Below, in pieces: positions 9,124-28,036 of a DNA stretch of 64,000 nucleotides. The DNA lies in IMG/VR virus record IMGVR_UViG_3300050343_000199, positions 1-64,000 of that record; one strand, 5' to 3'. A model generated the notes under the pieces. It was not told the origin of the DNA. It ran no database searches and saw nothing but the letters and a program-made list of their open reading frames with translations. Positions within the stretch are counted from its first letter, which is position 1. Each line of letters begins with the position of its first letter. Both the position numbers and the translations under genes were made by a program. Origin of the DNA: a virus.

Positions 9124-10529
9124 TAGAAGCTACCTGTAAAATTACCAAACTCACCGAATGGGTTTCTTTCACCCCAGTCAATAATATTATCCGCACCATC
9201 TTCAATTGATTGATTCTGATCAAACTCAGTGCTTGTGTTATTAATTGTTGAGAATGTTCCTAGTGTATATATCGCATTAGACTCAACACCTCTGATGAGA
9301 TCTCCATCTAAGAAATTGCCAGTACGATTCATTACCTCTAGGGTATAATCAACTCCATTCCAATCTGCTACCTCAGCAATTGTTGCACTATCTAAGTCAA
9401 ACATCTGTGCTCTTTGACCACTGGTGGTAGTATCTGTGTAAGCATTAATTACGTATTTAAGATTTACTGAGTCGTAATAAAAATGTCCCGGTACAGTTGT
9501 TGTATCCGTACCATTAAATGTGTAAACGTAAGAGATTCTACTATCTTCAAATTTCCAGTAGTAGTATTTTTTCTGAGTAGTAATTGCATAGTTTGGATCA
9601 AATCCACCAAGAGCAGTTACTTCAATTACACTGTTAGATGAAGTCCAAGTTCTACTACCACTTTGTTGTACCATTCCTCCAATGACAACATGTTCATCTT
9701 TAATAAATTGAACCGTTTGAGGTGGAGCATCAATAGATATGGTAGGTGGGTTTGCAGGATCATATCCCGTTCCTCCACCAACGATTGATAGTGACACTAC
9801 ACCACCATCTTCAATAGTAGATTCAACAATACCACCTGTCCCCCCTCCACCTGTAATACTTACAGAGGGTGCTGTGTTATAACCAGTTCCTGCAAGAGTT
9901 ACAGTTGCTCCAGATATACTGCCGCTAGAATCAACGGTAACTGTTCCAGTTGCTTGCTGTCTGGTAGTAAGACCAAGATTAAGGGTTGTGATGTTACTGA
10001 AATCTCTTTCAATATCGTCAATTTCGTCAATCCCGGTGTCAAACTTGTCTGCTCCTTGCTCGTAGAGTTCAGCAGTAAGAACATAAAAATACTGTTTGCC
10101 CAATTGGAAGAATGGTTGTTCTCTTTCAACATACTTGATTTCGTAAGTATCTTCTGTCAATGGAAAATATATTAAATCTCCTTCGTTCGGTCTACCATCT
10201 ACTGCTAAATTCATTGCAGGATTTGCAGATTGTTCCCACCTTCTTCTAGAAACAACAAATGTAATTTCGTCAGTAATTCTTAAACCAAACTTACTAACAA
10301 ATTCATTGCCTGCTCCAAATCCCTCAACATTAACTAGCATCATTTCAATCATATAACTTTGATTGAATTCTGATTGAATAACTTCTCCTAAAGTTTTATC
10401 TTTAATTTGAACCCTAGGAACGTAATAAACATCAGCACCGAACAATTTAATTTGCTCGTCTACTAAATCTTGTACAAGATTCTGTTCGGTTTTATTACCA
10501 CCGTATTGTGGGAAGTATACCTTTTTCAT
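9123..10529 (-). CDS. 14: Neck protein gp14
   Basis: Head-completion (neck) protein that, with gp13, seals the filled head and provides the tail attachment site. The N-terminus MKKVYFPQYGGNKTEQNLVQ and the segment SRRRWEQSANPAMNL are typical of cyanophage gp14. At 468 residues it is much larger than T4 gp14 (about 256). The extra length includes a glycine-rich repeat (about residues 195-275, ATVTLAGTGYNTAPSVSITG and LSIVGGGTGY) that occurs in other virion proteins of this window. Its ATG overlaps the gp13 stop in an ATGA. The insertion is likely an exposed decoration on the neck (inference). Confidence 0.92.
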   Translation of the reverse strand: MKKVYFPQYGGNKTEQNLVQDLVDEQIKLFGADVYYVPRVQIKDKTLGEVIQSEFNQSYMIEMMLVNVEGFGAGNEFVSKFGLRITDEITFVVSRRRWEQSANPAMNLAVDGRPNEGDLIYFPLTEDTYEIKYVEREQPFFQLGKQYFYVLTAELYEQGADKFDTGIDEIDDIERDFSNITTLNLGLTTRQQATGTVTVDSSGSISGATVTLAGTGYNTAPSVSITGGGGTGGIVESTIEDGGVVSLSIVGGGTGYDPANPPTISIDAPPQTVQFIKDEHVVIGGMVQQSGSRTWTSSNSVIEVTALGGFDPNYAITTQKKYYYWKFEDSRISYVYTFNGTDTTTVPGHFYYDSVNLKYVINAYTDTTTSGQRAQMFDLDSATIAEVADWNGVDYTLEVMNRTGNFLDGDLIRGVESNAIYTLGTFSTINNTSTEFDQNQSIEDGADNIIDWGERNPFGEFGNFTGSF

Positions 10530-11362
10530 CCGATCATATCCATTGGTGGAAGTTCATATGTACTGCTGGATTTTTCCATTAAAGCAGCAATTTCTTTTTC
10601 TGCATCATCATATAATTGCCTACCATTCATACTGACACCACCTGGAAGTTGAATACCATTAAATTTAATAAGGTTCTGACCCCACTGTCTTTTAATTAAT
10701 GCGGTAGAATATTTTTTAATAAACGGATCGTTATACACTTGAGTAAACGTTTCTGGATCAAGTGCTCTAAAACAATCAATAAGTACCCACTCGTCTTTCA
10801 TAACTCTTTTTGGATCAATATCAATATACAAACGATCTTGTCTGCAATTAAATCTATATGAAATCAATGAACCAGTATTGATAATCATATCAATATTTTC
10901 AAAGTGTTGCTTTATCATGTAGTAGTTGACCATATCAAAACCACCAAAAGCAAGACCTGTACCTGATGCATTTGAAAACAAATCCATCAAATAATACTGG
11001 TTGCTCATACCAAACATATTATTTCTTACGAAGTTTGAACTGATACCATATACTTTACTGATACCAAATATATGATCAGGAACTTCTAAGTAATTTTTTC
11101 GGTTCTCCCAAGTTGCTGCATCTGGAGCAGCAGTAGAAACTGTTTCATCTTCTGATGTAAACCTTGTTATATCATCGTCAGTAAACTGATGTTTGAGGTA
11201 CATTCTTTCAACACCATCATAGTGACGCTCACGATAATATTGCAATGCATCATCAATAGCATCGTCAACTTGATCGTCATCTATATTGATCTCTAGAACT
11301 GGGAACCCTAATTGTCTTAAACAATAGTCCCTTAGCTCGGACCTGCTAGAAGGTTGAGCCAT
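10526..11362 (-). CDS. 13: Neck protein gp13
   Basis: Head-completion protein that binds the portal beneath the packaged head. The 278-residue sequence starts MAQPSSRSELRDYCLRQLGF, continues INIDDDQVDDAIDDALQYY, and has a conserved DPKRVMKDEW segment, all typical of T4-like gp13. It leads a four-gene block (gp13-14-15-16) in which each start overlaps the preceding stop. The ATG follows immediately after the T-tract of a hairpin terminator, and the late promoter core lies 28-35 bases upstream, so its leader is very short. Confidence 0.94.
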   Translation of the reverse strand: MAQPSSRSELRDYCLRQLGFPVLEINIDDDQVDDAIDDALQYYRERHYDGVERMYLKHQFTDDDITRFTSEDETVSTAAPDAATWENRKNYLEVPDHIFGISKVYGISSNFVRNNMFGMSNQYYLMDLFSNASGTGLAFGGFDMVNYYMIKQHFENIDMIINTGSLISYRFNCRQDRLYIDIDPKRVMKDEWVLIDCFRALDPETFTQVYNDPFIKKYSTALIKRQWGQNLIKFNGIQLPGGVSMNGRQLYDDAEKEIAALMEKSSSTYELPPMDMIG

Positions 11363-11394
11363 AAAAAAATACCCCTAGTTTCCTAAGGGTATTT
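11363..11394 (-). terminator. Rho-independent terminator before gp13
   Basis: On the minus strand an 8-bp stem AAATACCC/GGGTATTT, extended by three inner pairs past one mismatch, is followed by seven T. It ends transcripts from the fibre genes upstream. Its 5' arm overlaps the gp13 late promoter (11390-11397) and its T-tract touches the gp13 ATG. Confidence 0.85.
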
Positions 11395-11397
11395 ATA
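11390..11397 (-). promoter_or_regulatory. T4-type late promoter core before gp13
   Basis: A perfect TATAAATA on the minus strand. With the usual spacing, transcription would start inside the terminator hairpin, leaving a transcript with only the 3' part of the stem, so new transcripts would escape termination. Confidence 0.8.
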
Positions 11398-11411
11398 ATT
11401 CCTAATGATGA

Positions 11412-11945
11412 TCAGAAATCAATCGTATTTGCTGCGAGAAATGCTGGAACCCAATTAGGATCAAATGCTGTAACATCTTCTTCCGTGGTAAGATTATTCA
11501 ACAAAACTTCGTGGGCATTGTTGGCATCACGTGCTGCTTTTCTATATGCAGCAACTTTTGTTTGTCTAGTAGTTACACCTTCACCTTCAAGAGAATCTAA
11601 TTCTTTTGCTCTTTCACCACGCCATGCAACGGGTTCAATAGCATCCGAAATTAAAGATTTAATTCTAGCAGTTTTAACAGTTTTTAATTGATTAATCCGA
11701 GATGTTTCTGCTTCTAATAATAATAATGCTTGCTGTTCTTCTTTCGTTTTACCAGCAAAACGATTAACAACAGTATCTTTAACATCATTTAATGTTAAAG
11801 ATGAAATCTCCTCATTATCAGGATCAAAATTATATTCAACAATATAATCACCAGAGTCTAATGACTCCCCCTCAAAAGGGTTAGTATCCCACATATTTGT
11901 AGGAATTATATTTCCACTCTCTGTACTGAAAAAAATATATGCCAT
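11412..11945 (-). CDS. Fibre-associated protein, copy B2 of a duplicated module
   Basis: A 177-residue helical protein that pairs with the fibre gene just upstream. It shares architecture with the 168-residue gene at 13501-14007: MAYI/MAFI start, an IVEYNFD or IVEYDWQ strand, NRFAGKT or NRFPGKT followed by EEQQALL or AEQVALI, a long charged helix, and an LTTEEDVTAF or LTTIEELRAF ending. The similarity is diffuse, so the duplication is not recent. A fibre-assembly chaperone or attached subunit is possible, by analogy with gene pairs of fibre plus small protein, but no known chaperone family is recognised. The terminator follows its stop. Confidence 0.75.
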   Translation of the reverse strand: MAYIFFSTESGNIIPTNMWDTNPFEGESLDSGDYIVEYNFDPDNEEISSLTLNDVKDTVVNRFAGKTKEEQQALLLLEAETSRINQLKTVKTARIKSLISDAIEPVAWRGERAKELDSLEGEGVTTRQTKVAAYRKAARDANNAHEVLLNNLTTEEDVTAFDPNWVPAFLAANTIDF

Positions 11946-11968
11946 GTGACTACTTTAATTTCCTATTA

Positions 11969-11980
11969 TATTTATTTATT
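11969..11980 (-). promoter_or_regulatory. Tandem late promoter cores before gene B2
   Basis: AATAAATAAATA on the minus strand, giving two overlapping registers of the late core; one includes part of the stop codon of the fibre gene (11979-11981). It lies 24-35 bases before the ATG at 11945. Confidence 0.6.
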
Positions 11981-13460
11981 ACGCTAGATTACTCTCTAAT
12001 TGAGAACTAAACATAGAAGTGTTGTACATTGAAGGAACAATGAAAGGATATCCTGTACTATTTCCTGCAGTATCAAGCATGTAAGCTTTGTAATTATTAT
12101 CAAATTCTGAGTACTCAGCTCCATCACTTCTTTTTGTGAATTCAAAATCTAAATCATGCACTCTAAAATAAGTACCTGGATCATCTTTATTGGTGGATTT
12201 TGAAACGATTATTTTATTTTTACCCAAAGGAGCAAGAGATCTTCCGTGAGTACTATCTTGGTTTCGGAAATACATCCACTTACCATCTTTAACTCTTACG
12301 CATGCCCAATAGATGCCAGATCCATAATAATACGAAGGACAATATGCCCACCAATAATCACCACTACTACTTACTTGCCATCTAGAACCAAATCGCCTCC
12401 CTTGCTCATATCCATAAGTTGTAGTCCAACCTTGATTCCATACCATACCAGCATATGTTCCATCTGCATTCCATTTTTCCAACTGGACACCATGACTAGG
12501 TGTCATTGTAAATGCAAATACTACTCCATTATCGCAAATACAAGTTTGGGATCTGTTATAAGCTTCAGAAGCACCGGAGTACGAAACGGCGCGATCAGTA
12601 CTTCTATCGTATGCAGTATAATTTGCGGAATTATTAAAGAACTGATAAATTTTTGAATCACTATCAGATTTAGCATTACTTCCTTTAGGAGTTCCTTCAA
12701 AATGATTATTTGCAAGAGCATATGCTCTCCAATCCATTTGCACATCAGTATAAACGATAGGTTGACGCCTACCGTCACCATCAGTTTGCATCAAACAAAC
12801 TTTTTTAGATCTAGTATTAATACATGAACCACCGTACATCCTATCGCTAGTAGTATCACTAGTGGAGACTCCCGCAGCAGTTTGGACTGGGATTTGGATC
12901 ATATTTGCCCCCTCCCTAGTCCAATTATGATAATACTTAGCAGCATTTCTCCCACTAAACATCATTCTATGATTTCCACCACTTCCTTCTTTATTACAAA
13001 ACCAAGCCCAATCTTGGTCTATATCACCTACAATAGAGTTAACATCTCTAAATGCATATGGAATAGAGCTCTCAACAGCTGGCCAACCACGAAGATATCC
13101 TGCAGTTTTAGTAAATTCAGTTACACTGACGTGTCCTTGATGTCCTAAGTAACCATTATTGCAAGTGTTGGAACCATAGTTTGATGAACTACCTGCATGA
13201 CTTCCAGTCTCCTGGTAGGCACTACTAGCATAAGCATTAAAAAATTCTGGAGCGTAAGAAGTATATGTTCTAAATTGATTGTAATAATCGTTACCGTCGC
13301 CAACATACTTAGCAATCGGTTCTATATTGTGGTCAAATAATATCCAACCACAACCATTAACACTATGCTGACATGCATAAGTAGCAAAACATGGTTGCGA
13401 ATATGGATCTTGAACTTTTGATTTAACCGTTGCTGGTTTAGTACTAATACTTCTTGCCAT
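11979..13460 (-). CDS. Putative tail fibre/adhesin, copy A2 of a duplicated module
   Basis: A protein of 493 residues rich in Tyr, Trp, Ser and Gly. I place the start at ATG 13460 (MARSISTKPATVKSK) because the paralogue at 14010-15545 begins MARRLTITD and aligns from there; the longer frame would need a TTG at 13490. Shared blocks with the paralogue include DPYSQPCFATYA near the N-terminus, FRTYTSYAPEFF, YGYEQGRRFGSRWQVSS and WAYCPSYYYGSGIYW. The repeated short strand-turn units suggest a beta-propeller or similar beta-rich tip. Carbohydrate or receptor binding is inferred from composition and from its place next to fibre genes; no named domain is recognised. Confidence 0.75.
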   Translation of the reverse strand: MARSISTKPATVKSKVQDPYSQPCFATYACQHSVNGCGWILFDHNIEPIAKYVGDGNDYYNQFRTYTSYAPEFFNAYASSAYQETGSHAGSSSNYGSNTCNNGYLGHQGHVSVTEFTKTAGYLRGWPAVESSIPYAFRDVNSIVGDIDQDWAWFCNKEGSGGNHRMMFSGRNAAKYYHNWTREGANMIQIPVQTAAGVSTSDTTSDRMYGGSCINTRSKKVCLMQTDGDGRRQPIVYTDVQMDWRAYALANNHFEGTPKGSNAKSDSDSKIYQFFNNSANYTAYDRSTDRAVSYSGASEAYNRSQTCICDNGVVFAFTMTPSHGVQLEKWNADGTYAGMVWNQGWTTTYGYEQGRRFGSRWQVSSSGDYWWAYCPSYYYGSGIYWACVRVKDGKWMYFRNQDSTHGRSLAPLGKNKIIVSKSTNKDDPGTYFRVHDLDFEFTKRSDGAEYSEFDNNYKAYMLDTAGNSTGYPFIVPSMYNTSMFSSQLESNLA

Positions 13461-13500
13461 TGGGAATATTGCAATATTTTGGGATATCAATCACCTATAT

Positions 13501-14007
13501 TTAGGCGAAATGTTCTTTGGTCTTAAATGCACGTAACTCTTCAATAGTTGTTAATGCATTTAAGTTTGCTTCTGCTTGATTTGATTTAGTTCTTACTGAA
13601 TTTCTTTCTGTAAAGTATTTGGTTAGTTCATTGTTATTACCATTAACTAAATCAGTATCGCGAGCTCTGGTTTCTTTCCATTCCATTCTCCTTAACAACT
13701 CTTTAGCATATAATTTAATATCTTCAGTTTTAAATTCAATTTCTATATCAATTCGTTTTTGATCATCTTCTTCTTCAATTAAAGCAACTTGTTCTGCAAT
13801 AGTTTTACCAGGAAATCTATTTGACATAGTTACATTATCATCCGCCACTGTCATTGATGGTAGATAATCAGTTTCTTGCCAATCATATTCTACAATTAAA
13901 AGATATCCTTCAGGAGCTCCTCCACGTCCCCACTCTTCCGCTTCAAGTCTAGTATTGTATACACCAAAAGCTGATTTTTGATAGTTGTCGTATCCGATAA
14001 AAGCCAT
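13501..14007 (-). CDS. Fibre-associated protein, copy B1 of a duplicated module
   Basis: A 168-residue, highly charged helical protein that starts three bases after the stop of the 511-residue fibre gene. It parallels the 177-residue protein at 11412-11945 in layout: an N-terminal strand region (LLIVEYDWQETDYLPS), an NRFPGKTIAEQVALI segment, and a long Glu/Lys/Arg-rich helical region. A weak late-promoter-like CTAAATAT overlaps its stop. Possible fibre chaperone or helical fibre subunit; not identified. Confidence 0.75.
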   Translation of the reverse strand: MAFIGYDNYQKSAFGVYNTRLEAEEWGRGGAPEGYLLIVEYDWQETDYLPSMTVADDNVTMSNRFPGKTIAEQVALIEEEDDQKRIDIEIEFKTEDIKLYAKELLRRMEWKETRARDTDLVNGNNNELTKYFTERNSVRTKSNQAEANLNALTTIEELRAFKTKEHFA

Positions 14008-14009
14008 TT

Positions 14010-15545
14010 TTATAATCCTGCGATATTGGGCATGTTAGGTTCACTACAGAATAGTGAAGTATCATATTTTGCTGGAATGATTCCTGCATATGCGGTAGTA
14101 TCACATCCTCCTTCAAAATTTTGAGTCAACCAATTTTGAAGGTTTAGTTGATCACCGTAATTTTTTCTTTCCATTTCATATGCTATATCAACTGCGGCAA
14201 TGTACATACCTGCACCGCCGTCTGTATTGATGCTTCCATTGAATCCCATGCTACTTACACCAATCGGGAAAGGTTGGAAACCATAACTACTATCGTTGGT
14301 ATAATACCATAAGATTTTACCATCAGAAATTCTAACAGCCATCCAATAGATACCAGATCCATAATAATACGAAGGACAATATGCCCAAAAATACTTACCG
14401 TCGCTACTTACTTGCCATCTAGCACCATATTGCCTACCTTGTTCATATCCATAACATGTAGTCCAACTTTGACCATGCCAATATTCACCATTTGGATTGA
14501 GACCACTGCTTGGTTGAGTTCTATCTTGCTCTTTAGTAGTACCATCCCATTTCCAAATAGTAAATCCCCAACTAGGAACCATATTGTAGCAAATGATATC
14601 TCCATTATCACATAGAACAGGTACAGGTCTATATCTAGCCTCCTCGGCACTACCCAGCTGGTTATAACCAGTCCAAGTGTTTAACTCCTGATACTCTGTG
14701 GCATTAGCAGTATTATGAAAATACTCATATAGTAAATTATCATTAGCATCTTGGTTCTCACCGACCATCGCTGTCGTATACTGTTTGCTAGCATCGTGGG
14801 CAAAATGTCTAAGATCCGGGCAGTTGTTATAAACTACTGGTTTCCATCTTCCATCACTAGTGGAGTACATAACAAGCAACTGATTAGTTTTCTTGTTATA
14901 GCAACATCCACCATGCGTGGTATGAAAATTTTTGCTACTACCGCTACGATCGGTCCAAGTATTTGGAATGTAAGTTCTACCGGTATATGTATTATTATGC
15001 CTCAACATATTATATTGAGTAGCAGATCTTCCACCAAGAATTAATTCTTGTTTTGTTTGACTACCGCCGTTAGGAACAAAGATAGCATAATCTTGATGAG
15101 TTTCATTTACGATAGGGCAGACATCTCTAAAACCAAATGCTCTATAACTGCTACCATTATCCCGACCAGATATGTTCCAACCACCATCATTACCAGATTG
15201 ACCCCCTGGTGATGAATGCGACATATGTCCTAGATATCCAACCGCTGTAGTAAAGGATGCATAGTATCCACTATTACTACTTGGATTGTTATTGGTCTGA
15301 ACACTTTGGTAACTACTTGTAGATTCAAAAAACTCGGAAGCGGTGGTAGAATAGGTTCTAAAAGATCCGTACCTGTCGCTACCATTACCATGAGTCGTAG
15401 CAATTATATTAAAGTTATGATCATACTGATAATAACCCCCGCCATGAGAATGGTTCATTGCGTATGCTGTAAAGCACGGTTGAGAATACGGATTAATCGT
15501 CTTCTGTTGTAGTGCAGTATCAGTTATTGTTAGTCTACGAGCCAT
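14010..15545 (-). CDS. Putative tail fibre/adhesin, copy A1 of a duplicated module
   Basis: A 511-residue beta-rich protein, paralogous to the protein at 11979-13460 over its whole length. Shared blocks include NPYSQPCFTAYA, FRTYSTTASEFF, GYEQGRQYGARWQVSS and CPSYYYGSGIYW. Differences concentrate between these blocks and include asparagine- and glycine-rich loops, as expected for receptor-binding surfaces under diversifying selection. Its ATG (15545) follows the 107-residue virion protein by 32 bases. Function as a host-recognition protein is inferred from position between fibre genes and neck genes. Confidence 0.75.
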   Translation of the reverse strand: MARRLTITDTALQQKTINPYSQPCFTAYAMNHSHGGGYYQYDHNFNIIATTHGNGSDRYGSFRTYSTTASEFFESTSSYQSVQTNNNPSSNSGYYASFTTAVGYLGHMSHSSPGGQSGNDGGWNISGRDNGSSYRAFGFRDVCPIVNETHQDYAIFVPNGGSQTKQELILGGRSATQYNMLRHNNTYTGRTYIPNTWTDRSGSSKNFHTTHGGCCYNKKTNQLLVMYSTSDGRWKPVVYNNCPDLRHFAHDASKQYTTAMVGENQDANDNLLYEYFHNTANATEYQELNTWTGYNQLGSAEEARYRPVPVLCDNGDIICYNMVPSWGFTIWKWDGTTKEQDRTQPSSGLNPNGEYWHGQSWTTCYGYEQGRQYGARWQVSSDGKYFWAYCPSYYYGSGIYWMAVRISDGKILWYYTNDSSYGFQPFPIGVSSMGFNGSINTDGGAGMYIAAVDIAYEMERKNYGDQLNLQNWLTQNFEGGCDTTAYAGIIPAKYDTSLFCSEPNMPNIAGL

Positions 15546-15577
15546 TAGATTGTCCTTTATAGTACTTATTCAAATAT

Positions 15578-15901
15578 TCAAGCGTTGCCGTCAATACCAT
15601 AGGCAACTGCTGAAACTCCAGTTGACGATGCCCATACTTGAATACCGTTTGTGCTGTCAGCAAGGATGCCAGTTCTTTCAAGAACACCGTTTGCTGGAAG
15701 AGCAACATTATATTCAATGTTGTCTGCATCTGCAACAGTGGTAGTTGCCGCTAGTGCAATTCTAATTTGAACAGAACCAGAAGTTCTATTGCAAATATTA
15801 ACAGTACAAACTTTAATATCTCCTGCTGAGGTGGGAGCGACTAATGTCTCCCAAGTTGAGGCGGACGCAACGTCCACCTTTGCATATACTCCTGACGCCA
15901 T
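15578..15901 (-). CDS. Small virion protein, 107 residues
   Basis: A compact beta-sandwich-like protein (MASGVYAKVDVASASTWETL; NICNRTSGSVQIRIALA; GIQVWASSTGVSAVAYG) with no charged coils or membrane segments. The strand pattern, Ala/Val/Thr richness and position between two fibre genes suggest a fibre or decoration subunit. A late promoter core lies 41 bases upstream. I recognise the general type from cyanophage genomes but not a named family. Confidence 0.7.
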   Translation of the reverse strand: MASGVYAKVDVASASTWETLVAPTSAGDIKVCTVNICNRTSGSVQIRIALAATTTVADADNIEYNVALPANGVLERTGILADSTNGIQVWASSTGVSAVAYGIDGNA

Positions 15902-15941
15902 GTTAATGCTCCTTGTTAGATCTTGCTTATGGTGTTATGAT

Positions 15942-15949
15942 TATTTATA
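15942..15949 (-). promoter_or_regulatory. T4-type late promoter core
   Basis: A perfect TATAAATA on the minus strand in the 49-base gap after the 1563-residue fibre gene; it would drive the 107-residue gene and the duplicated module. Confidence 0.8.
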
Positions 15950-15950
15950 A

Positions 15951-18900
15951 TTACATTGCGGCAATGAAATAACCAATAGCGGTTACTTCATTTACAGCAC
16001 TATCAACGTATGTCTTGACTGCCAACTGAGTTGGAACTGATATATCATCAGCAGATCCACCAGCAAGAGTAACATCATTGTCAAATGATACACCCAGTAC
16101 TGTAGTTTCAGTTAGAACTGAAGTTCCGTTAACGTGATATTCCTTAGAACCAGCAATATCAACATGCTCCGAAAGAACCCACTTATCACCGGATGCTGAC
16201 CAAGAAATAGTCTTGTCGTTACCAGCTTTTACGGTAATACCACCACCGTCTCCAGTGACATCTGAAGGTCCACCAGCACTGAATACAGTACCAGTTGCAC
16301 TACCACTACCTTGGAACACAGCACTTAATGTAACTGTACTTCCGTTGACAGCAGAAACTGTATATGTACCAGACATAGTGACTGTACCGCCACCGGACGT
16401 TACTCCAACAGCAACACCAGGTGCTAGGTTAGTGGTATCACTTACATTCGTGATGTCAGTTGAACCGGCACTGATATCACCGGTAAAACTACCAGAAGCA
16501 ACTGTACCAAGTTCAATGTTACGATCTTTGGAAGTAACAGTAACAGAATTAACAGAAGTTGTAGTTCCTTTAACAGTTAAGTTTCCTCCAACTGTAAAGT
16601 CAGAACTAACTGAATTCAGTGTGCTGACATAAGTAACGACTGCTGCCTGAGTAGGAACTTTCTCGTTACTGTTCTGCGCCATCGTGCCATCAGTTGAGAA
16701 TTCGTTAATAGCAGCACCCAACTGAGCACCGATAGAACCAAGTCTCAAACTTGATAGACCAGATAGATCAAACGCAGAAGCATCTAGAGTTGCTTTACCA
16801 GTTGCCTGTTCAACTTTAAAGTACTTACCAACTGCAAAGTTACCATCTTGGTCAGTAGATACGTAGTAAACACGACCAGGACGTGATTCGTCAGTTTCCT
16901 GTGAAGGAACATTTGGTGATAGGGGAAGACCAGGCCAATTCGTATTTGCTTGACTTCCAGTACCAACGTCTAGGAAATCGTGTGCAGTTAATCTAACTTG
17001 AGAATAACGATAACGAATCTTAAAGTCTTGACCATCGCCAGCAGCAATTACTTTCTCGTCAGCAAATAGTAACGTAGTAATACCAGTAGTATCAGGAGTT
17101 ACTGCACTAATGAGGAAGAATTCATTACCAACCTTAACAAAATCATTTGCTTCAAAGTTAAGATCCGCACGTTTGATACGTAGGAAGAGTTGTGCATCTG
17201 TAGCATCTTCAATTAGTTCATCTTGTGAAGTAACCTTAGTTTGATAAATGCTTACTGCATCACCCTGTGCATGATTTTGTGCAACAGTTCCGTCTTGTGC
17301 CCTAGCAACTTCAATTTGGTCTGCAGCGACAATTGCTACAACCTTGAAGAGTTCCTGGTTAACAACAACATAACCGTTTGCAATCATTCCAGTAACGCTT
17401 GCAACACCCATGATGTATGGTGCTGCTTCAGTACCTGTTGAGGTAGAGTTGATAGCACCACTCAAAGTGGTTGATACAGCAGTTGCGTTCTCTGGGTAGT
17501 GTGTTACACTAGTAGTACCATTATGCGTTGCTGCAGTTGATCCTAGAGCGCCTCTGTTGACTGTTAGCGAACCTCTACCATCTGGAGCAGTATAGCTGGA
17601 GTTGGAGATAACGTATGAACCAGCGTCATCATTAACTCCATTATCCTGCATCTCAACAGAACCACCTTGGTCAGGACCATATGAAAGATCAACAACCGTA
17701 AGGACAAAACCTTTTTGTCCGGTAACTGCATCAGTATTATTAACGAGGGTAATATATGCAGATGAAAGTTGTCCTGTAATTACTTCACCTTGTACAAAGG
17801 TTCCTGTAATTGGGAAGTAGTAAAGGTAACCAGATGGTGATTGATCGCTGATCAACTCACCAATTGCACCTGAAGTACCACCAATGATTCTTTCACCTGG
17901 AGTAAATCCGCCATCTTTAGCACCAGCAGGATTAATTTCTAGACGACCACCTTTGATTTTACCGTTAACGGTAGATTCATTAGCATCAAATCCTCTAGCA
18001 ATTGCACCATACTTACCATAAGAAGAGTTACCAGAAACACCACGAATTCTACCACCTCTTGTAGAGGTGTATGAAATGTGATTATAATATGTGAAGCAAG
18101 ATACAATCTCAGTTGCAGCACCTCTAGTTACATAGAAACCAATACCACCATCAAGGATTTGGGTATAGGAGTCAAACACCATTGACTTGTTTGACTTAGT
18201 TGAGGTGTTATCAAAGTGTTCGTGAGTACCACCATCAAGTACAACACCTACAGCAGCACCACCAATTGCGGCACAGTTTTGAACATAAGGTGACTTAGTA
18301 ATCGGTGAATTTGGATTAAGTCTGAAGTATACACCTTTAAGCGTTCCATGATCTGTGTTCTTATCATCTGGAGCATAAGGAACAAATCCAGACATGCCTT
18401 CAAATACCATATCTTTAATGGTATTTGCAGTAGACAGGAAGAACATCGTGGTTTCCTGGTTAGGAATACCAGCAGCAGTCGTGATAGACTTGTATCCATC
18501 ATCATTAGTAAGTGCAGTAAGATTGCCTGAGAATAGCGAACCTGCTGCTAAATCGCATAAAGTTTGTACTGCTGCAGTTTGAGTTGCACAGAATCCAGGA
18601 TCACTGGTAATTGTATTATCAATTACTTGATTGATGACGTTATTCGTTGCTGCAGATACTGTTTCATTTTTAACTACCTGAATACCAGCATCACGAATAA
18701 TATCAATAAGTAATTTATCTTCAGAACCAACAGTGGTAATAGCATCAGAACCACCGGCAATAACAGCAGTTGCAAAAGCATGAACTCTGTCATTACCACC
18801 GGATCTTACTTGAGCAGCAAGTTCTACAACAAACTCCTCCAATCTTAGGCGGATATCAGCAGCAGCACCAGTAGGATTTGAACTTTGATCTGCAACAAAT

Positions 18901-21514: not shown

Positions 21515-24500
21515 TTAAATCATCCAAACATATGTGCGAGGTGGTTGGAACAACTCAACTTGTACAATTCCGAATCCACTAATTGCAATTGAACCACTTG
21601 CAATATAAGGAGCACGTGCAAATGCCTCATCTCCATTAATAAATCCAAACAACGTTCCAGATCCGGCATAAGCACGGGATCTGATGGTTGTACTAATACC
21701 ATTAACATTAATTTTAACGAATGGTTGCTCAGAGAATGTAAGTAATGGATCTCCGGATGTTCCTTGAAGTGTAAATTTGCCGGGAGTACCAAGTTCTCTT
21801 GCGGTAATTTTTTCGGATATTCTTTCTCCCGCAAACGAGAAGAGCATTTGCTTCTCGTCTGGATTGACAGTGAGAGATTCTGCTGCACCAGATAGAGTTG
21901 GGATAATACCAAACCCAACAAAATCTCTTGCTCTTGTAGTAGTTGCATTTCCACTGAGAGGAATTGTTCCTTCTCCAGTGTGTGCAAATCTGACAAGAAC
22001 ACCAGCTTCTCCAGATGCTTTGAACAATCCACCCTGACTGACTTCTCTTGCAGTTGTATTTTCTGTTCCTGCACCAATGAACGAGAAGAGCATTTGCCTC
22101 TCGTCTGGATTGAAGGTAACCGACTCTGCAGATCCCGATAGTTTTCTGAGTGAACCAGAACCAACATGTAGTACAGAGATTTTGTTGATAGAATCTCCGG
22201 AGACCTTGAACAGAACTTGTTCTGTCTGTGGTACAACTCCAGTAGATTCTGATACTCCACCAAATCCGAAGAGTGAACCAGTACCAATAATACTGCGATG
22301 AGTGGTGAAGAATACTTTGCCACTGATCTTCGTCTGAACAAATGGTTGTTCTGCGAACGTAAGTAATGGATCTCCAGATGTACCAGAGAATGTAAATGTT
22401 CCACCTTGACTGATTTCTCTGACAAGAATTCTTTCTGTACCTTCTCCTGTAAAGGAGAAGAGCATTTGCTTCTCGTCTGGGTTGAAGGTAATAGATTCGG
22501 CACTACCTGCAAGAGCAAAGATATTACCAGATCCAATGTTGTTCGGAACAAACTTCTCTGTAACAACACCAGAAATTTGAGCAGAACCAGAACCTGTGTA
22601 TACACTGGTAAGATTTTCTTGACCTTCTCCAGTAATATCAACTTCAATCTGTTTGATTTCAGTAGCACTGAAGGATTCTAATGCTTCCCCAATGAAGGAG
22701 AAGAGCATCTGACGTTCATCTGGATTAAACGTTACAGATTCTGCAGCACCATTGATAGCGAAGATATTACCTGATCCGATGTTATTAGGAACATATCGGA
22801 CAAATACATCACCAGAAATTCTTAGATCAGCTTGTAGTTCTGGCGATGCAGTGAAGGATTCTGATAGACCACCAATTCCGAATAGAGAACCAGTACTAAA
22901 TTCAACAATAGATGTAGTCTCTGCAATTCTCGTTCCAGTAAACGAGAAGAGCATCTGTCTCTCTTCTGGATTGACAGTAAGAGATTCTGCAGATCCGGAG
23001 AGTGTTTTGAGTGAACCAGAACCATTGTGTAGTAGACTGAAGTTTGTTTTTGCTTCACCACTAACTGGGATAGTACCAGTAACAACCCAAGATGGTTGCC
23101 AATCAAAGGTCTCAAAGTCAGATAGCGCACCTCTGCGAATTCTGATTGCTTTTTCAATACCAACATAGTTCTCGGTATGAGTCTCTTTTCCTTCTCCAAT
23201 AAAGGAGAAGAGCATTTGTTTCTCTTCTGGATTGACAGTGAGAGATTCGGATGCACCAGAGAACTTCCTGAATGTACCAGTACCAACAACACTTGGAACA
23301 TAATGTGTCTTGGCAATACCACTGACAGGAATAACTCCAAATGGTTGCTCTGCAAATGTAAGGATCTGAGGAGTTGTATCTCCAGATAGTCTGATTTCAG
23401 TTCCTTCTTCTGGTGGATTGGCAGAGAATACTTCTTCGGATGTACCACCAAATTTGATATGTGCAGTAAATGCCGGAAGTCTCTTGGTGAGAGACTCGGA
23501 ACTAATTCCGTTAGAGAAGATAGCACCACTTCCAATAAAGTCTCTTGCTCTTGGAGTTGCAGCAACACCAGAAACATTGATAGTTCCAAATACAAAGTGA
23601 TGAACAAGTACACGTTCAACCAGATTATTAACAGTGAATAGACTTCCTGTTCCTGTGTATGGAACAGTAAAGCTTTCTGCGAGAACACCAGATAGTTTGA
23701 TGTCTGTGGTAATATCTGGTGGGTTGAATGATACTGCTTCCGCTGCACCATTGATTCCGAATAGTGAACCAAATCCTGTAAATGCTCTTGCTCTTGGAGT
23801 TTCTGCAATTCCGGAAACTGGAATTGTACCTTGAGATACCCAAGAAGGTTGCCAATCGTAAGTAACAAATCTGCTGAACGGACCAGGAGATACTTTGAAT
23901 AGAAGTTGTACTTCGTCTGGTGAGTATCTTCTGCTTTCTGTGGCACCACCGAATCCGAATAGAGATCCACCACCAAATGTTCGTAGACTGAATAATGGAA
24001 TCGCTGCATTGCGAACAAGAATCGGTGGAGATATATTGTTCCATTGAGGTGGAACAACAACGAATGCATCTCCAACAATCTTGATGACTGTACTTTCCGT
24101 AAATATAGAAGTATTACGAATGTACTTCTCAACCAGTGTACCCTTGAGTGAATCAAGTTGACCGAATGGACAGACAAGACCAGTAGTATCAAGGATATGT
24201 CCGTAATCTGTCAGTCCATCTTCTGTATCTGATACATCCTGATAGTCTGCGAATACTGTTGGTACAGTTGTAAATGCAGTTAATGTATAAGTTACTCCAG
24301 GATCAATTGATAATGTAGATCCTAGAGTTACCTTTGTGCATCCAGAAGACGATGTGGTATTTGTAGAAACGACCCCATCAACATCAACACATACACTATT
24401 TGCAGAAAGATCAACGATTCTTCCATAATCAAGTTCCGGTTCGTCTCTACAGAGATCCATACTGTAAACTTCAGTATGCTTCTCTTCTGAAAGTTCACTG

Positions 24501-27500
24501 AGTTCTGGTTTCTTGGAACATAGAGTAATAGAACCAGTAGTCTCATATGCATATTGAACTCTAAGATCTCCACCACTAACTGCGAATAGAGAACCAACAC
24601 CTTCATGTGCAAGACAAATTCCTGGATCTCCAGATGTACCAACGAATGTGAAGATTGGTTCTTCGGTAGGAGGAACTGAAGTAGTAGACTCTGCTGTTCC
24701 TGTATATCCAAATAAAGTTCCTGTTCCCTTAATACCAACGGTAATACCAATCGCAGTATCACTACGGAATCCGAATAAACCATCACCTGGTTGTATTAGA
24801 CTGAAGTTAGTCTTGGAATTTCCGCCAAGTTTGATCTGACCACTACCAATTTCACTAGCAAATAGTGGGGAGATTGCAACACCACTAATATCAATAAATC
24901 CACGACCGTTATAATTTGGAGTGAATTTAACATCACCAACTCCAAAGATATCAATCTGACCGTAGATACATGCAGGTAATCCTTGTCTTGGAGTTCCAAG
25001 AATATGACCATGATCAACTAGAGGTGAAGCATTCTCTGCAACAAATCCATAATCCAGAGTAGAAGATGGAACTGTGTATTGTGGAGTAATGGTGTAAGTA
25101 ACACCAGGATCAACTGCTAAGGAATTGAGTACCTTGGTGCATCCAGTTGCAGACGTGGTATCTGTAGAAATAATACCGTCAACATCAACACAAGAAACTG
25201 CATTCGGATCAATAATAAATCCGTAATCTGGTTCGGTGAATGGTGCAATAGAACTACAGTTGTAACTGTAAACCTTGACTTCCTCAAGATTGTTGAATCC
25301 AAAGAGTCCACCAGAACCAACGTAATCGTATACAGTTCTTTCAACTGCAGTTTGTAGAGTGAATAGAACACCACTACCAATCCAGTTAGGATTGAATGCA
25401 AACGTTGCTTCTCCAGTAAAGGAGAATAGAAGATCTCTTTCGTCTGGGTTAAAGGTAACAGAATCTGCAGCGCCACTGAGAGTTGGGATAAGACCATCAC
25501 CAAGTATACCAACGCCAATTCCAATCTGAGATTCACTATGGAATCCAAATAAACCATCACCTGGTTGCAGTAGACTAAAGTTGGTAATGGAATCACCACC
25601 AAGTGTTTTGATGCTTCCTGAACCAAATACAGTGACATCAAGAGGAACTCTACCTTCACCAAAGATACTAATGCCACCCTGAGATATCCAGTTAGGTGCA
25701 AGACTATTAACAGATTCACCTGTGATATCAATATGACCGTAAATACATCCTGGCATTCCGAGACGTGGAGTACCAAGAATATCTCCAAAGTCTGCAAGAG
25801 GAGCTGCGTTCTCTGAAGTTAATCCATAATCTAAGACACTAGATGCAATAGTATTCTGAGGTCTTACTGAATAATTAACACCTGGATCAATTGTTAACGA
25901 ATTGAGTACCTTGATGCATCCAGACGTTGTTGTTTCACTCGTAGAAATAACACCGTCAACATCAACACATGCAATTGCTCCTGTGTTGATAATAAATCCA
26001 TAGTCGTTCTCTGGGAAAGGAACGATAGAACTGCAGTTATAATCGTATACTTTCTTCTCTTCAAGATTATTAAATCCGAAGATTCTTCCAGATCCAACAT
26101 AGTCATATACAGTTTTCTCAACTGCAGTTTGTAGAGTGAATAGAACACCACTACCAATCCAGTTGGGATTAAAGGAGAATGTTGCCTCTCCAATAAGAGA
26201 GAACAATAAATCTTTTTCTTCTGGATTAAAGGTAACGGACTCTGCAGAACCATTAATACTTGGAATAAATCCTGTTCCGGTAATTCCGGCAGTAATACCA
26301 ATTTGAGTATCACTACGGAATCTGAATAAACCATCACCTGGTTGCAACAGAGCAAAGTTCGTGATGGAGTCTCCACCAAGTGTTTTGATACTTCCTGTAC
26401 CAAATACGGATACATCCAGAGGAACACTAGCTTCACCAGTAAGTTTACTGATGTATCCTCTACTTGTCCAAGTTGGATTAAACGCAAACTGCGCTCCATT
26501 TTCTGGATCAAGATGGAACAATCCAAACGGAATAAGATTGCTAGTCGTTAAGATATTACCAAAGTCTACCTGTGGTGCAGCAGATTCTGATATTAGACCA
26601 TAGTCAATAAAGTTACTAGGAGCATTAGCACCTAGACTTACATCATAAGTTGTTCCTGGATCAATACTCGCAGTTGATCCCACACGTACAATACATCCGG
26701 AAGATGTTCCAGATAATGTTCCTGATACATCTTCAATATCACTTGGATGACATATAGTTAGATAACCATAGTCTGCCTTAGAGAATTCAATGATACTATC
26801 ATTGATGTATCTTTCTGTATGTTTTTCGTCTGATAGTTCAGGAAGTTCTGGTTTTCTGCTAACCAGTTTAAGTCCACCAGATCCAACGAACGCATTTGTA
26901 GCGCGTTGCTGTCCATTAGATAGAGTGAATAGATCTCCAAATCCTGTTTCATGTACAAGAGTAATATCTCTTGCAGCACCTGTAACCTTACTAATATATC
27001 CGCTACTAGTCCATGTTGATACGAATGCATCATCTGTACTTGCAATCGTAAATAGAGTACCAGAACCAAAGATTCCAATACCAATACCAATACCCGAATT
27101 TCCAAGTATGGAGGTAGTTCCCGCACCGTCGTGCTTGCCAGAAAATACCCCCAGACTTGTACCACTAAGACCTTTGACTTTTCCATCAACGATATAACCG
27201 TATACTGCTGGTGAAGTCTGTCTACCAAAGGTAAACGCAATACCTGTACCTTCGTATGTGTTAGTCGCCTTCCAAGACGCTTCGCTAACAACTTTAACAA
27301 ATCCGAAAGATTCTACATTAGTTACATAAACAACTCTGCCGTAATCTTCTAGTGTGGCATTGATATCTGAAATATTACCAAAATTTATTGTTGGTAATAC
27401 TGGAGTTGTTGTATGTGTATATGTTACTGATTTTAATCCATAGTGATCCCAATTATTTCCAGTATGAGATGGTTGTATTAACCTGAATTGTGTTCCCGCT

Positions 27501-28036
27501 GTCCTCGCTACAGAAGGAATTGTAATTTCTACAGATTTTAAAGTATTAAATGTAGTGTCATTATGCGCTACTACAGTATCAATAGAAGTCCACAAACTTC
27601 CATTATAATACTCTAAGTATAAACTCTCGTTAACAGTATCAGGATCTTCTCCACCATTGGCATCATTGCCTCTAATTACTTCAAAGGTTAGTGAAGAATT
27701 AACATTATTTGGTAAACTAAACTCTACTATTCTGGATGCTGCGGTACTGCTGTTGAATCTAATATGTCTACCAATATTAAATCCACCAGTTGATCCTGTG
27801 CCTGTACCTGAATTTGTTAAAAATGTATTTGTTAAAGTAGCATTTAAATTATCTACTGCTACAGTTTCAGTTGCAGTTACTGGAGTATTATTAAATGCTA
27901 ATGAACCATAATCAAGTTCATTGTACCGATCAATGATACTTGGTTCATAAACATATGAAAAGCTGCCCAAACCCTCACTCGCAGCGCGAATGATTGATGG
28001 AAATATTCCTTGTGTATTATAGGAATAAACGGACAT
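21515..28036 (-). CDS. Giant repeat-containing virion protein, 2173 residues
   Basis: A very long, almost entirely beta-strand protein. Three units of about 260 residues, starting at GSIKTLGGDSITNFALLQPG-like sequences near 26420, 25640 and 24860, are followed by a C-terminal zone of shorter units of 45-60 residues. Each short unit carries an AES.T.NP.E.QMLFSF-type sequence; six have MLFSF exactly and several have LLFSF, LLFSL or VLFKV. Strands alternate as GSGSLF...SG.A, suggesting stacked beta sandwiches along a fibre. There is no recognised enzyme or binding motif. It begins after a hairpin terminator-like sequence and ends just before a late promoter. Long tail fibre or whisker is the likeliest role (inference). 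Confidence 0.8.
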   Translation of the reverse strand: MSVYSYNTQGIFPSIIRAASEGLGSFSYVYEPSIIDRYNELDYGSLAFNNTPVTATETVAVDNLNATLTNTFLTNSGTGTGSTGGFNIGRHIRFNSSTAASRIVEFSLPNNVNSSLTFEVIRGNDANGGEDPDTVNESLYLEYYNGSLWTSIDTVVAHNDTTFNTLKSVEITIPSVARTAGTQFRLIQPSHTGNNWDHYGLKSVTYTHTTTPVLPTINFGNISDINATLEDYGRVVYVTNVESFGFVKVVSEASWKATNTYEGTGIAFTFGRQTSPAVYGYIVDGKVKGLSGTSLGVFSGKHDGAGTTSILGNSGIGIGIGIFGSGTLFTIASTDDAFVSTWTSSGYISKVTGAARDITLVHETGFGDLFTLSNGQQRATNAFVGSGGLKLVSRKPELPELSDEKHTERYINDSIIEFSKADYGYLTICHPSDIEDVSGTLSGTSSGCIVRVGSTASIDPGTTYDVSLGANAPSNFIDYGLISESAAPQVDFGNILTTSNLIPFGLFHLDPENGAQFAFNPTWTSRGYISKLTGEASVPLDVSVFGTGSIKTLGGDSITNFALLQPGDGLFRFRSDTQIGITAGITGTGFIPSINGSAESVTFNPEEKDLLFSLIGEATFSFNPNWIGSGVLFTLQTAVEKTVYDYVGSGRIFGFNNLEEKKVYDYNCSSIVPFPENDYGFIINTGAIACVDVDGVISTSETTTSGCIKVLNSLTIDPGVNYSVRPQNTIASSVLDYGLTSENAAPLADFGDILGTPRLGMPGCIYGHIDITGESVNSLAPNWISQGGISIFGEGRVPLDVTVFGSGSIKTLGGDSITNFSLLQPGDGLFGFHSESQIGIGVGILGDGLIPTLSGAADSVTFNPDERDLLFSFTGEATFAFNPNWIGSGVLFTLQTAVERTVYDYVGSGGLFGFNNLEEVKVYSYNCSSIAPFTEPDYGFIIDPNAVSCVDVDGIISTDTTSATGCTKVLNSLAVDPGVTYTITPQYTVPSSTLDYGFVAENASPLVDHGHILGTPRQGLPACIYGQIDIFGVGDVKFTPNYNGRGFIDISGVAISPLFASEIGSGQIKLGGNSKTNFSLIQPGDGLFGFRSDTAIGITVGIKGTGTLFGYTGTAESTTSVPPTEEPIFTFVGTSGDPGICLAHEGVGSLFAVSGGDLRVQYAYETTGSITLCSKKPELSELSEEKHTEVYSMDLCRDEPELDYGRIVDLSANSVCVDVDGVVSTNTTSSSGCTKVTLGSTLSIDPGVTYTLTAFTTVPTVFADYQDVSDTEDGLTDYGHILDTTGLVCPFGQLDSLKGTLVEKYIRNTSIFTESTVIKIVGDAFVVVPPQWNNISPPILVRNAAIPLFSLRTFGGGSLFGFGGATESRRYSPDEVQLLFKVSPGPFSRFVTYDWQPSWVSQGTIPVSGIAETPRARAFTGFGSLFGINGAAEAVSFNPPDITTDIKLSGVLAESFTVPYTGTGSLFTVNNLVERVLVHHFVFGTINVSGVAATPRARDFIGSGAIFSNGISSESLTKRLPAFTAHIKFGGTSEEVFSANPPEEGTEIRLSGDTTPQILTFAEQPFGVIPVSGIAKTHYVPSVVGTGTFRKFSGASESLTVNPEEKQMLFSFIGEGKETHTENYVGIEKAIRIRRGALSDFETFDWQPSWVVTGTIPVSGEAKTNFSLLHNGSGSLKTLSGSAESLTVNPEERQMLFSFTGTRIAETTSIVEFSTGSLFGIGGLSESFTASPELQADLRISGDVFVRYVPNNIGSGNIFAINGAAESVTFNPDERQMLFSFIGEALESFSATEIKQIEVDITGEGQENLTSVYTGSGSAQISGVVTEKFVPNNIGSGNIFALAGSAESITFNPDEKQMLFSFTGEGTERILVREISQGGTFTFSGTSGDPLLTFAEQPFVQTKISGKVFFTTHRSIIGTGSLFGFGGVSESTGVVPQTEQVLFKVSGDSINKISVLHVGSGSLRKLSGSAESVTFNPDERQMLFSFIGAGTENTTAREVSQGGLFKASGEAGVLVRFAHTGEGTIPLSGNATTTRARDFVGFGIIPTLSGAAESLTVNPDEKQMLFSFAGERISEKITARELGTPGKFTLQGTSGDPLLTFSEQPFVKINVNGISTTIRSRAYAGSGTLFGFINGDEAFARAPYIASGSIAISGFGIVQVELFQPPRTYVWMI
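21770..26900 (-). repeat. In-frame coding repeats of the 2173-residue gene
   Basis: The DNA itself repeats: a block encoding NP.E(K/R)QMLFSF recurs near 21835, 22085, 22455, 22705, 22945 and 23205, with related blocks near 25430 and 26200, and the larger units recur with a period of about 780 bases. Repeats keep the reading frame, indicating expansion by unequal recombination. Confidence 0.8.

Follow-up and report, generated by a model that had tools for sequence, protein, structure and literature searches.

Two neighbouring genes, designated A and B, are duplicated in tandem in the order A1-B1-A2-B2 in a T4-like marine cyanophage, and the array sits in the host-recognition island of this virus. 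The window analyzed was a stretch of 64,000 nt, positions 1 to 64,000 of IMG/VR virus record IMGVR_UViG_3300050343_000199, the whole record being 192,818 bases long. The duplicated cassette is genuine and conserved, and represents a variant form of the familiar pairing of fibre and chaperone. New here is that a motif shared by the two A proteins falls in the sole tract of A in which silent codons are common to both copies of a phage; this localized homogenization was the most surprising part of the case.

With modest confidence, the whole is read as a duplicated adhesin and chaperone cassette of which both copies were kept and one blade was locally converted. The A protein would be a beta-propeller tail protein binding a receptor on the host surface, probably a glycan. 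The B protein, encoded by the next gene, would serve as its assembly chaperone, holding the adhesin with a small beta domain and oligomerizing through a helical bundle. Doubling of the cassette would have taken place in an ancestor of this group of cyanophages, with a second duplication or a large homogenization in the lineage of two relatives (L028 and L029). Both copies would since have been retained as two divergent adhesins, probably expressed from one late transcription unit, and one conserved propeller blade would have been copied repeatedly between the two A genes of the same phage while the rest diverged.

The tandem array and its genomic setting

Positions of the genes and other features are given in Table 1. 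The four ORFs of the array are all on the minus strand and are transcribed in the order A1-B1-A2-B2, so that order and strand are equal in both copies, as the original prediction had stated. The stop codon of A1 is separated from the start of B1 by 2 nt, and the ORF of A2 is open 5′ of its ATG as far as a TTG at 13490. A1 and A2, predicted to be full-length paralogues, aligned over their whole length (36% identity in 515 alignment columns, E 3e-88), and both contain YGYEQGR and CPSYYYGSGIYW. A search of the whole record revealed no third A gene. The paralogy claimed for B1 and B2 was also borne out by a significant BLASTP alignment (35% identity over 127 residues, E 4e-15), outside which lay their first 34–37 residues; across the whole MAFFT alignment the identity was 30%.

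Table 1. Features of the array and its surroundings (positions in the window)
Feature	Position	Strand	Basis or remark
A1, predicted beta-propeller tail adhesin, 511 aa	14010..15545	-	ORF, paralogy, model
B1, predicted assembly chaperone of A, 168 aa	13501..14007	-	ORF, paralogy
A2, paralogue of A1, 493 aa from ATG	11979..13460	-	ORF, paralogy
B2, paralogue of B1, 177 aa	11412..11945	-	beta domain 2-61 and helices 68-150 (model)
gp13-type neck protein, downstream border of cassette	10526..11362	-	
107-aa gene preceding A in most relatives	15578..15901	-	also in cyanophages without A
TATAAATA, late-promoter-like site before 107-aa gene	15942..15949	-	
Tract copy in A1, 156 nt, putative gene-conversion tract	14317..14472	-	raised silent-site identity
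Tract copy in A2, 156 nt	12280..12435	-	82% identical to A1 copy

Downstream of the array lie the genes for gp13 (Ad2), gp14 (Hc2), gp15 (sheath stabilizer) and the small terminase gp16; upstream are the 107-aa gene and a tail fibre gene whose 1563-aa product strongly matches a PHROG. Elsewhere in the record, two genes of photosystem reaction centres (PF00124, psbA/psbD-type) mark the virus as a cyanophage. The sequence TATAAATA, which we take to be the consensus of a T4-type late promoter, was found ahead of the 107-aa gene and again ahead of gp13, and nowhere in the stretch separating them. The window holds 10 copies, all of them on the coding (minus) strand and several just upstream of ORFs; their number was not above chance (8.3 expected; at least 10 in 30 of 100 shuffles). 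Elsewhere in the window (21515-28036), a repetitive 2173-aa protein has 11 stretches matching phrog_11522, a family of unknown function.

The interval from the fibre to gp13 is described in PMC7029224 as a host recognition cluster found in pelagimyophages and cyanomyophages. In the cultured cyanophages S-CAM3 and P-SSM2, the interval from the fibre and the 107-aa homologue to gp13 holds other fibre genes and sugar-modification (surface-sugar) genes. The array thus occupies the same place, a variable island of fibre genes that ends at the neck genes, but is a compact AB or ABAB cassette, unlike the sets of long fibre and LPS genes of that cluster. Homologues of the 107-aa gene precede A both in T4-like phages and in two prophage-like loci of bacteria; they were also observed in the A-less cyanophages S-CAM3, P-SSM2 and AG-345-P14, and related stretches occur inside longer fibre proteins.

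Two fibre/assembly pairs in one phage, functions being predicted in the present case, are also known from the G segment of phage Mu, for which PMC11915804 describes two interchangeable sets of fibre and fibre-assembly genes linked to host range. The array differs from it in that both copies are on the same strand, are not accompanied by inverted repeats and could be co-transcribed. Inverted repeats of at least 20 nt were absent from 11300-16000 and the A/B pairs are on the same strand; a Mu-type invertible switch was therefore dropped. A diversity-generating retroelement was likewise dropped because no RVT_1 was detected in the record, which may be incomplete.

Predicted folds and roles of the A and B proteins

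Searches of Pfam, PHROGs, NCBIfam and the PDB sequences yielded no match of A or B to any named family of receptor-binding proteins, lectins or chaperones. The AlphaFold2 model of A, with moderate pLDDT (71.7) and a pTM of 0.81, displayed repeated strands, and propellers dominated its PDB matches. Lectins of the Photorhabdus PLL/PHL type ranked first (Foldseek E 8e-6; VIA Z 9.8, rmsd 6.2, 266 aligned residues), with non-lectin propellers nearly as high (Z 9.2). A is likely a beta-propeller, judging from this model; its relation to lectins is a lead. An hmmsearch with a 34-row A profile retrieved no lectin up to E 10. Phage propeller domains for which receptor binding is proven or has been proposed (PMC4901313) include those of phi11 gp45, PRD1 P2 and PhiKZ gp131C. 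No sequence similarity was found between these and A, in which nearly the whole 490–510 aa are predicted to form the propeller.

The genomic position suggests that A is a tail adhesin which would be located on the virion and bind a receptor, and A1 and A2 together may give the phage two receptor options, as originally proposed. It is quite unlikely that A is instead an enzyme with a propeller fold, hydrolysing host glycans in the manner of a tailspike, and not a pure receptor binder: sialidases, neuraminidases and prolyl peptidases were among the propeller matches of A, but lectin propellers were top-ranked and A matched no enzyme family.

The model of B2 had a pLDDT of 91.8, with strands within residues 2-61 and helices at 68-97, 99-120 and 126-150. 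When the B model was searched alone with Foldseek, nothing was found below E 0.99. Among the 50 VIA matches listed, one came from a tail-fibre system, chain 7ypx_a, which is gp25 of cyanophage Pam3, a chaperone of the fibre; it covered nearly the whole B chain (residues 1-176 of the model; Z 4.9, rmsd 7.4, 146 aligned). These values are under what helical bundles attain by common arrangement, unrelated helical matches reaching Z 8.7. According to PMC9608196, gp25 consists of a fibre-binding beta domain and a trimerizing helical domain, and was not found in the virion by mass spectrometry. The B model has the same layout as described there, an N-terminal beta domain followed by a C-terminal helical domain. 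In 48 B sequences, residues 1-50 varied more than residues 76-150 (2.49 versus 2.15 bits, permutation p 0.017).

Two known systems resemble the cassette in these respects, Pam3 gp24-gp25 (PDB 7YPX) and the Tfa system of phage Mu. Both likewise combine an adhesin gene with a small partner gene, and the partner has an N-terminal beta and a C-terminal helical domain, the N-terminal part being the more variable. They differ from the present case in the client, which is a TNF-like/glycine-rich trimer there and a predicted propeller here. No sequence match to these systems was observed, and the structural score quoted above is weak.

The original prediction had held that the partner may be a specific chaperone. 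A chaperone role of B in the assembly of A is plausible, favoured by the model and the gp25-like two-domain layout. Support from sequence families did not follow: among 34 B proteins no chaperone family was detected in Pfam or PHROGs, 11 of them matching phrog_26358 (unknown function) and the other matches being stray and weak, and NCBIfam gave nothing of use for three B proteins. That B is a second structural or tip protein remaining attached to A in the virion, as adhesin tip proteins do, is regarded as somewhat unlikely. B always follows A, being directly downstream of the predicted adhesin in the relatives as well, the chaperone families gave no match, and the high variability of the first 50 residues is also expected of an exposed tip. 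Against a tip protein are the layout shared with gp25, which is absent from the virion by mass spectrometry (PMC9608196), and the presence of one B per two A in phages with the arrangement AAB, which fits a reusable helper better.

The specificity of the predicted chaperone was examined by correlating distances among A1, A2, B1 and B2 in 12 phages, one per near-identical set. All correlated at 0.93–0.98, crossed pairs being equal to proper pairs; gp13 was a poor control (0.37–0.46). Strict one-to-one A-B pairing is not supported, since both the AAB arrangements and the equal crossed-pair correlations speak against strict one-to-one chaperoning.

Relatives and duplication history

Scans of IMG/VR gave 6, 28 and 72 loci, and genome contigs gave three: an ABAB on a MAG contig and a single AB each in a MAG of Rhodoferax and an isolate of Tepidimonas, tail genes adjoining the latter. 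The MAG contig with ABAB (L091, WTIV01000013.1) was binned as Euryarchaeota; its array is of the typical cyanophage type, and it is probably a wrongly binned phage contig.

Where one contig gave several loci, the repeats were dropped, which left 77 contigs for a census. The upstream gene (103–109 aa), the cassette and gp13 were all held by 48 of them, comprising 23 ABAB, 23 single AB and 2 AAB. A further eight had A..A without recognized B and a small gene of about 97 aa after each A; three more AAB and one AAA were also counted, and two ABAB and two AB contigs had no gp13 in view. The remaining 13 were cut, had one flank missing or had no recognized B. Complete relatives of this phage group are ABAB or AB, the sole unequal count of A and B being that of the two distant AAB contigs. 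Of the single- or triple-copy versions that the original prediction had suggested looking for in related phages, the single copy is seen in the 23 complete AB contigs, and three copies of A are seen in the AAA contig. No second A was found in the five single-copy phage records searched whole (25–92 kb; L053, L065, L068, L073 and L077). Natural phages with AB, ABAB, AAB and AAA make copy-number change of a whole adhesin cassette open to study.

Several observations were made on the less common arrangements. In the AAB contigs (L062, L064, L067, L071 and L072), one partner may serve two adhesins. The gene of about 97 aa after each A in L081, L083 and L085 to L090 lacks the helical part of B; some of these genes are weakly like the N-terminal part of B (E 0.4–4.7 in L081, L083 and L085; 0.019 for an ORF in L086). 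In L084 (4803-8900), three tandem A genes (448, 454 and 458 aa) are followed by a gene of about 104 aa with a B-like stretch seen by eye.

When A1, A2, B2 and the A of L093, L062 and L084 were searched by tblastn in 50,697 phage records, a set that may omit records near the window, no match was obtained. HMMs of A and B had no credible match in the examined stretches of S-CAM3, Syn1, AG-345-P14, Mosig EXVC030M and P-SSM2. A pair of 516 and 136 aa in Mosig was considered as an AB module and rejected by sequence for this reason. Together with their dedicated partner, these predicted tail adhesins of the propeller type form a family that had no match among the sequenced isolates searched.

A quick A tree of 91 rows, from which A fragments below 380 aa and same-contig repeat loci were left out, placed ABAB, AAB, A..A and AAA each in groups of their own; tandem multiplication of A therefore probably occurred more than once. 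Careful trees of A and B were then based on 30 representative contigs (48 A and 48 B). In that of A, the 36 ABAB copies were split from the 12 single copies by one branch with support of 100/99. Clades of A1 (94/62) and A2 (100/95) each comprised 14 phages. L028 and L029 were the only two phages in which A1 and A2 were sisters (100/99), and L051 and L052 were unplaced. With full-length A, one clade of all A1 was rejected (p-AU 0.002), as was one clade of all A2 (p-AU 0.013). The C-terminal part of A gave a p-AU of 0.355 for A1 and A2 of L028 and L029 as one clade and p 0.0008 for all A1 as one clade, for which the N-terminal part gave p 0.077. The B tree was compatible with the A tree and weakly supported (singles 50/68, B1 71/83). 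The lengths of the B proteins are reversed in L028 and L029 (B1 181–182 aa, B2 165 aa), most others having about 166 and 178 aa.

The simplest reading of these trees is a single old duplication together with a further duplication, or a homogenization, confined to the lineage of L028 and L029. That A and B were duplicated jointly and then diverged, as had been predicted, is supported by the ABAB or AB state of the complete relatives and by the position of the singles outside the ABAB group. We consider it very improbable that A2-B2 was gained from another phage by recombination and not duplicated in place. The long divergence, the mosaic nature of fibre islands, the lack of clean A1 and A2 clades and the chance that close donors lie outside the sampled phages would fit such a gain; against it, all ABAB copies form one group relative to the single-copy phages, and no sampled single-copy phage was nearer to A2 than to A1 in the careful A tree.

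A conserved tract shared by A1 and A2

Mapping of divergence along the aligned pairs, a check suggested with the original prediction, showed that A has diverged almost everywhere save in a 156-nt tract, which holds YGYEQGR and CPSYYYGSGIYW, includes an exact match of 35 nt and is the most conserved part of A. The tract was analyzed in 17–18 ABAB phages, with permutations on 13 (or 9 or 7) lineages represented by one phage each. At codons for identical residues in the 13 lineages, silent identity between A1 and A2 of the same phage was 0.756 in the tract, compared with 0.582 across phages; outside the tract the values were 0.529 and 0.508. Matching for amino acid gave 0.757 versus 0.572 in the tract and 0.574 versus 0.543 in the rest. 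The tract had first been chosen by eye in sliding windows, and the statistic used in the retest was the maximum over all windows. None of 5000 permutations reached the observed maximum at any of five window sizes from 20 to 80 columns; a set of the 7 most distant lineages that lacked L028 and L051 gave 11 of 5000. No such silent-site signal was detected between B1 and B2, for which 2901 of 5000 permutations reached the value.

The region of the shared motifs, the significance of which had been overlooked in the original prediction, looks like a conversion tract and not just leftover similarity. Recurrent local gene conversion between A1 and A2 is likely, but not proven, to be the cause of the signal. 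A tree of the tract DNA required 6 changes of the A1/A2 label, versus 2 for the rest of A. In an AU test of this short tract alone, separate A1 and A2 clades were not rejected (p 0.268), and the best match in the tract was the own partner in 6 of 13 lineages and the copy of another phage in the other 7. These last two results, together with the strong conservation of the tract, would also be compatible with selection at the codon or RNA level in place of conversion. That explanation is judged unlikely, because in the tract, and not elsewhere in A, the two copies have codon states specific to their phage in common, even when amino acids are matched.

If local conversion is real, it would provide a simple, testable mechanism by which two adhesins are kept different yet mutually compatible. 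A more far-reaching idea, to which we attach little probability, is that the conserved blade serves as a recombination handle. Short conversions and an occasional crossover would then reshuffle propellers in cis, and A1 and A2 would form a two-specificity set in which the shared blade remains matched as the binding faces diverge, a diversification of receptor binding independent of retroelements. Among the open-licence PMC papers listed, none was found that deals with a duplicated cassette of propeller adhesin and chaperone, or with gene conversion from one tandem fibre copy to another.

No clear silent-site signal was seen in 5 phages with AAB or in 5 with A..A, these groups being compared without a permutation test. 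Direct repeats in 11300-16000 consisted of the 156-nt pair and one chance-like pair of 30 nt.
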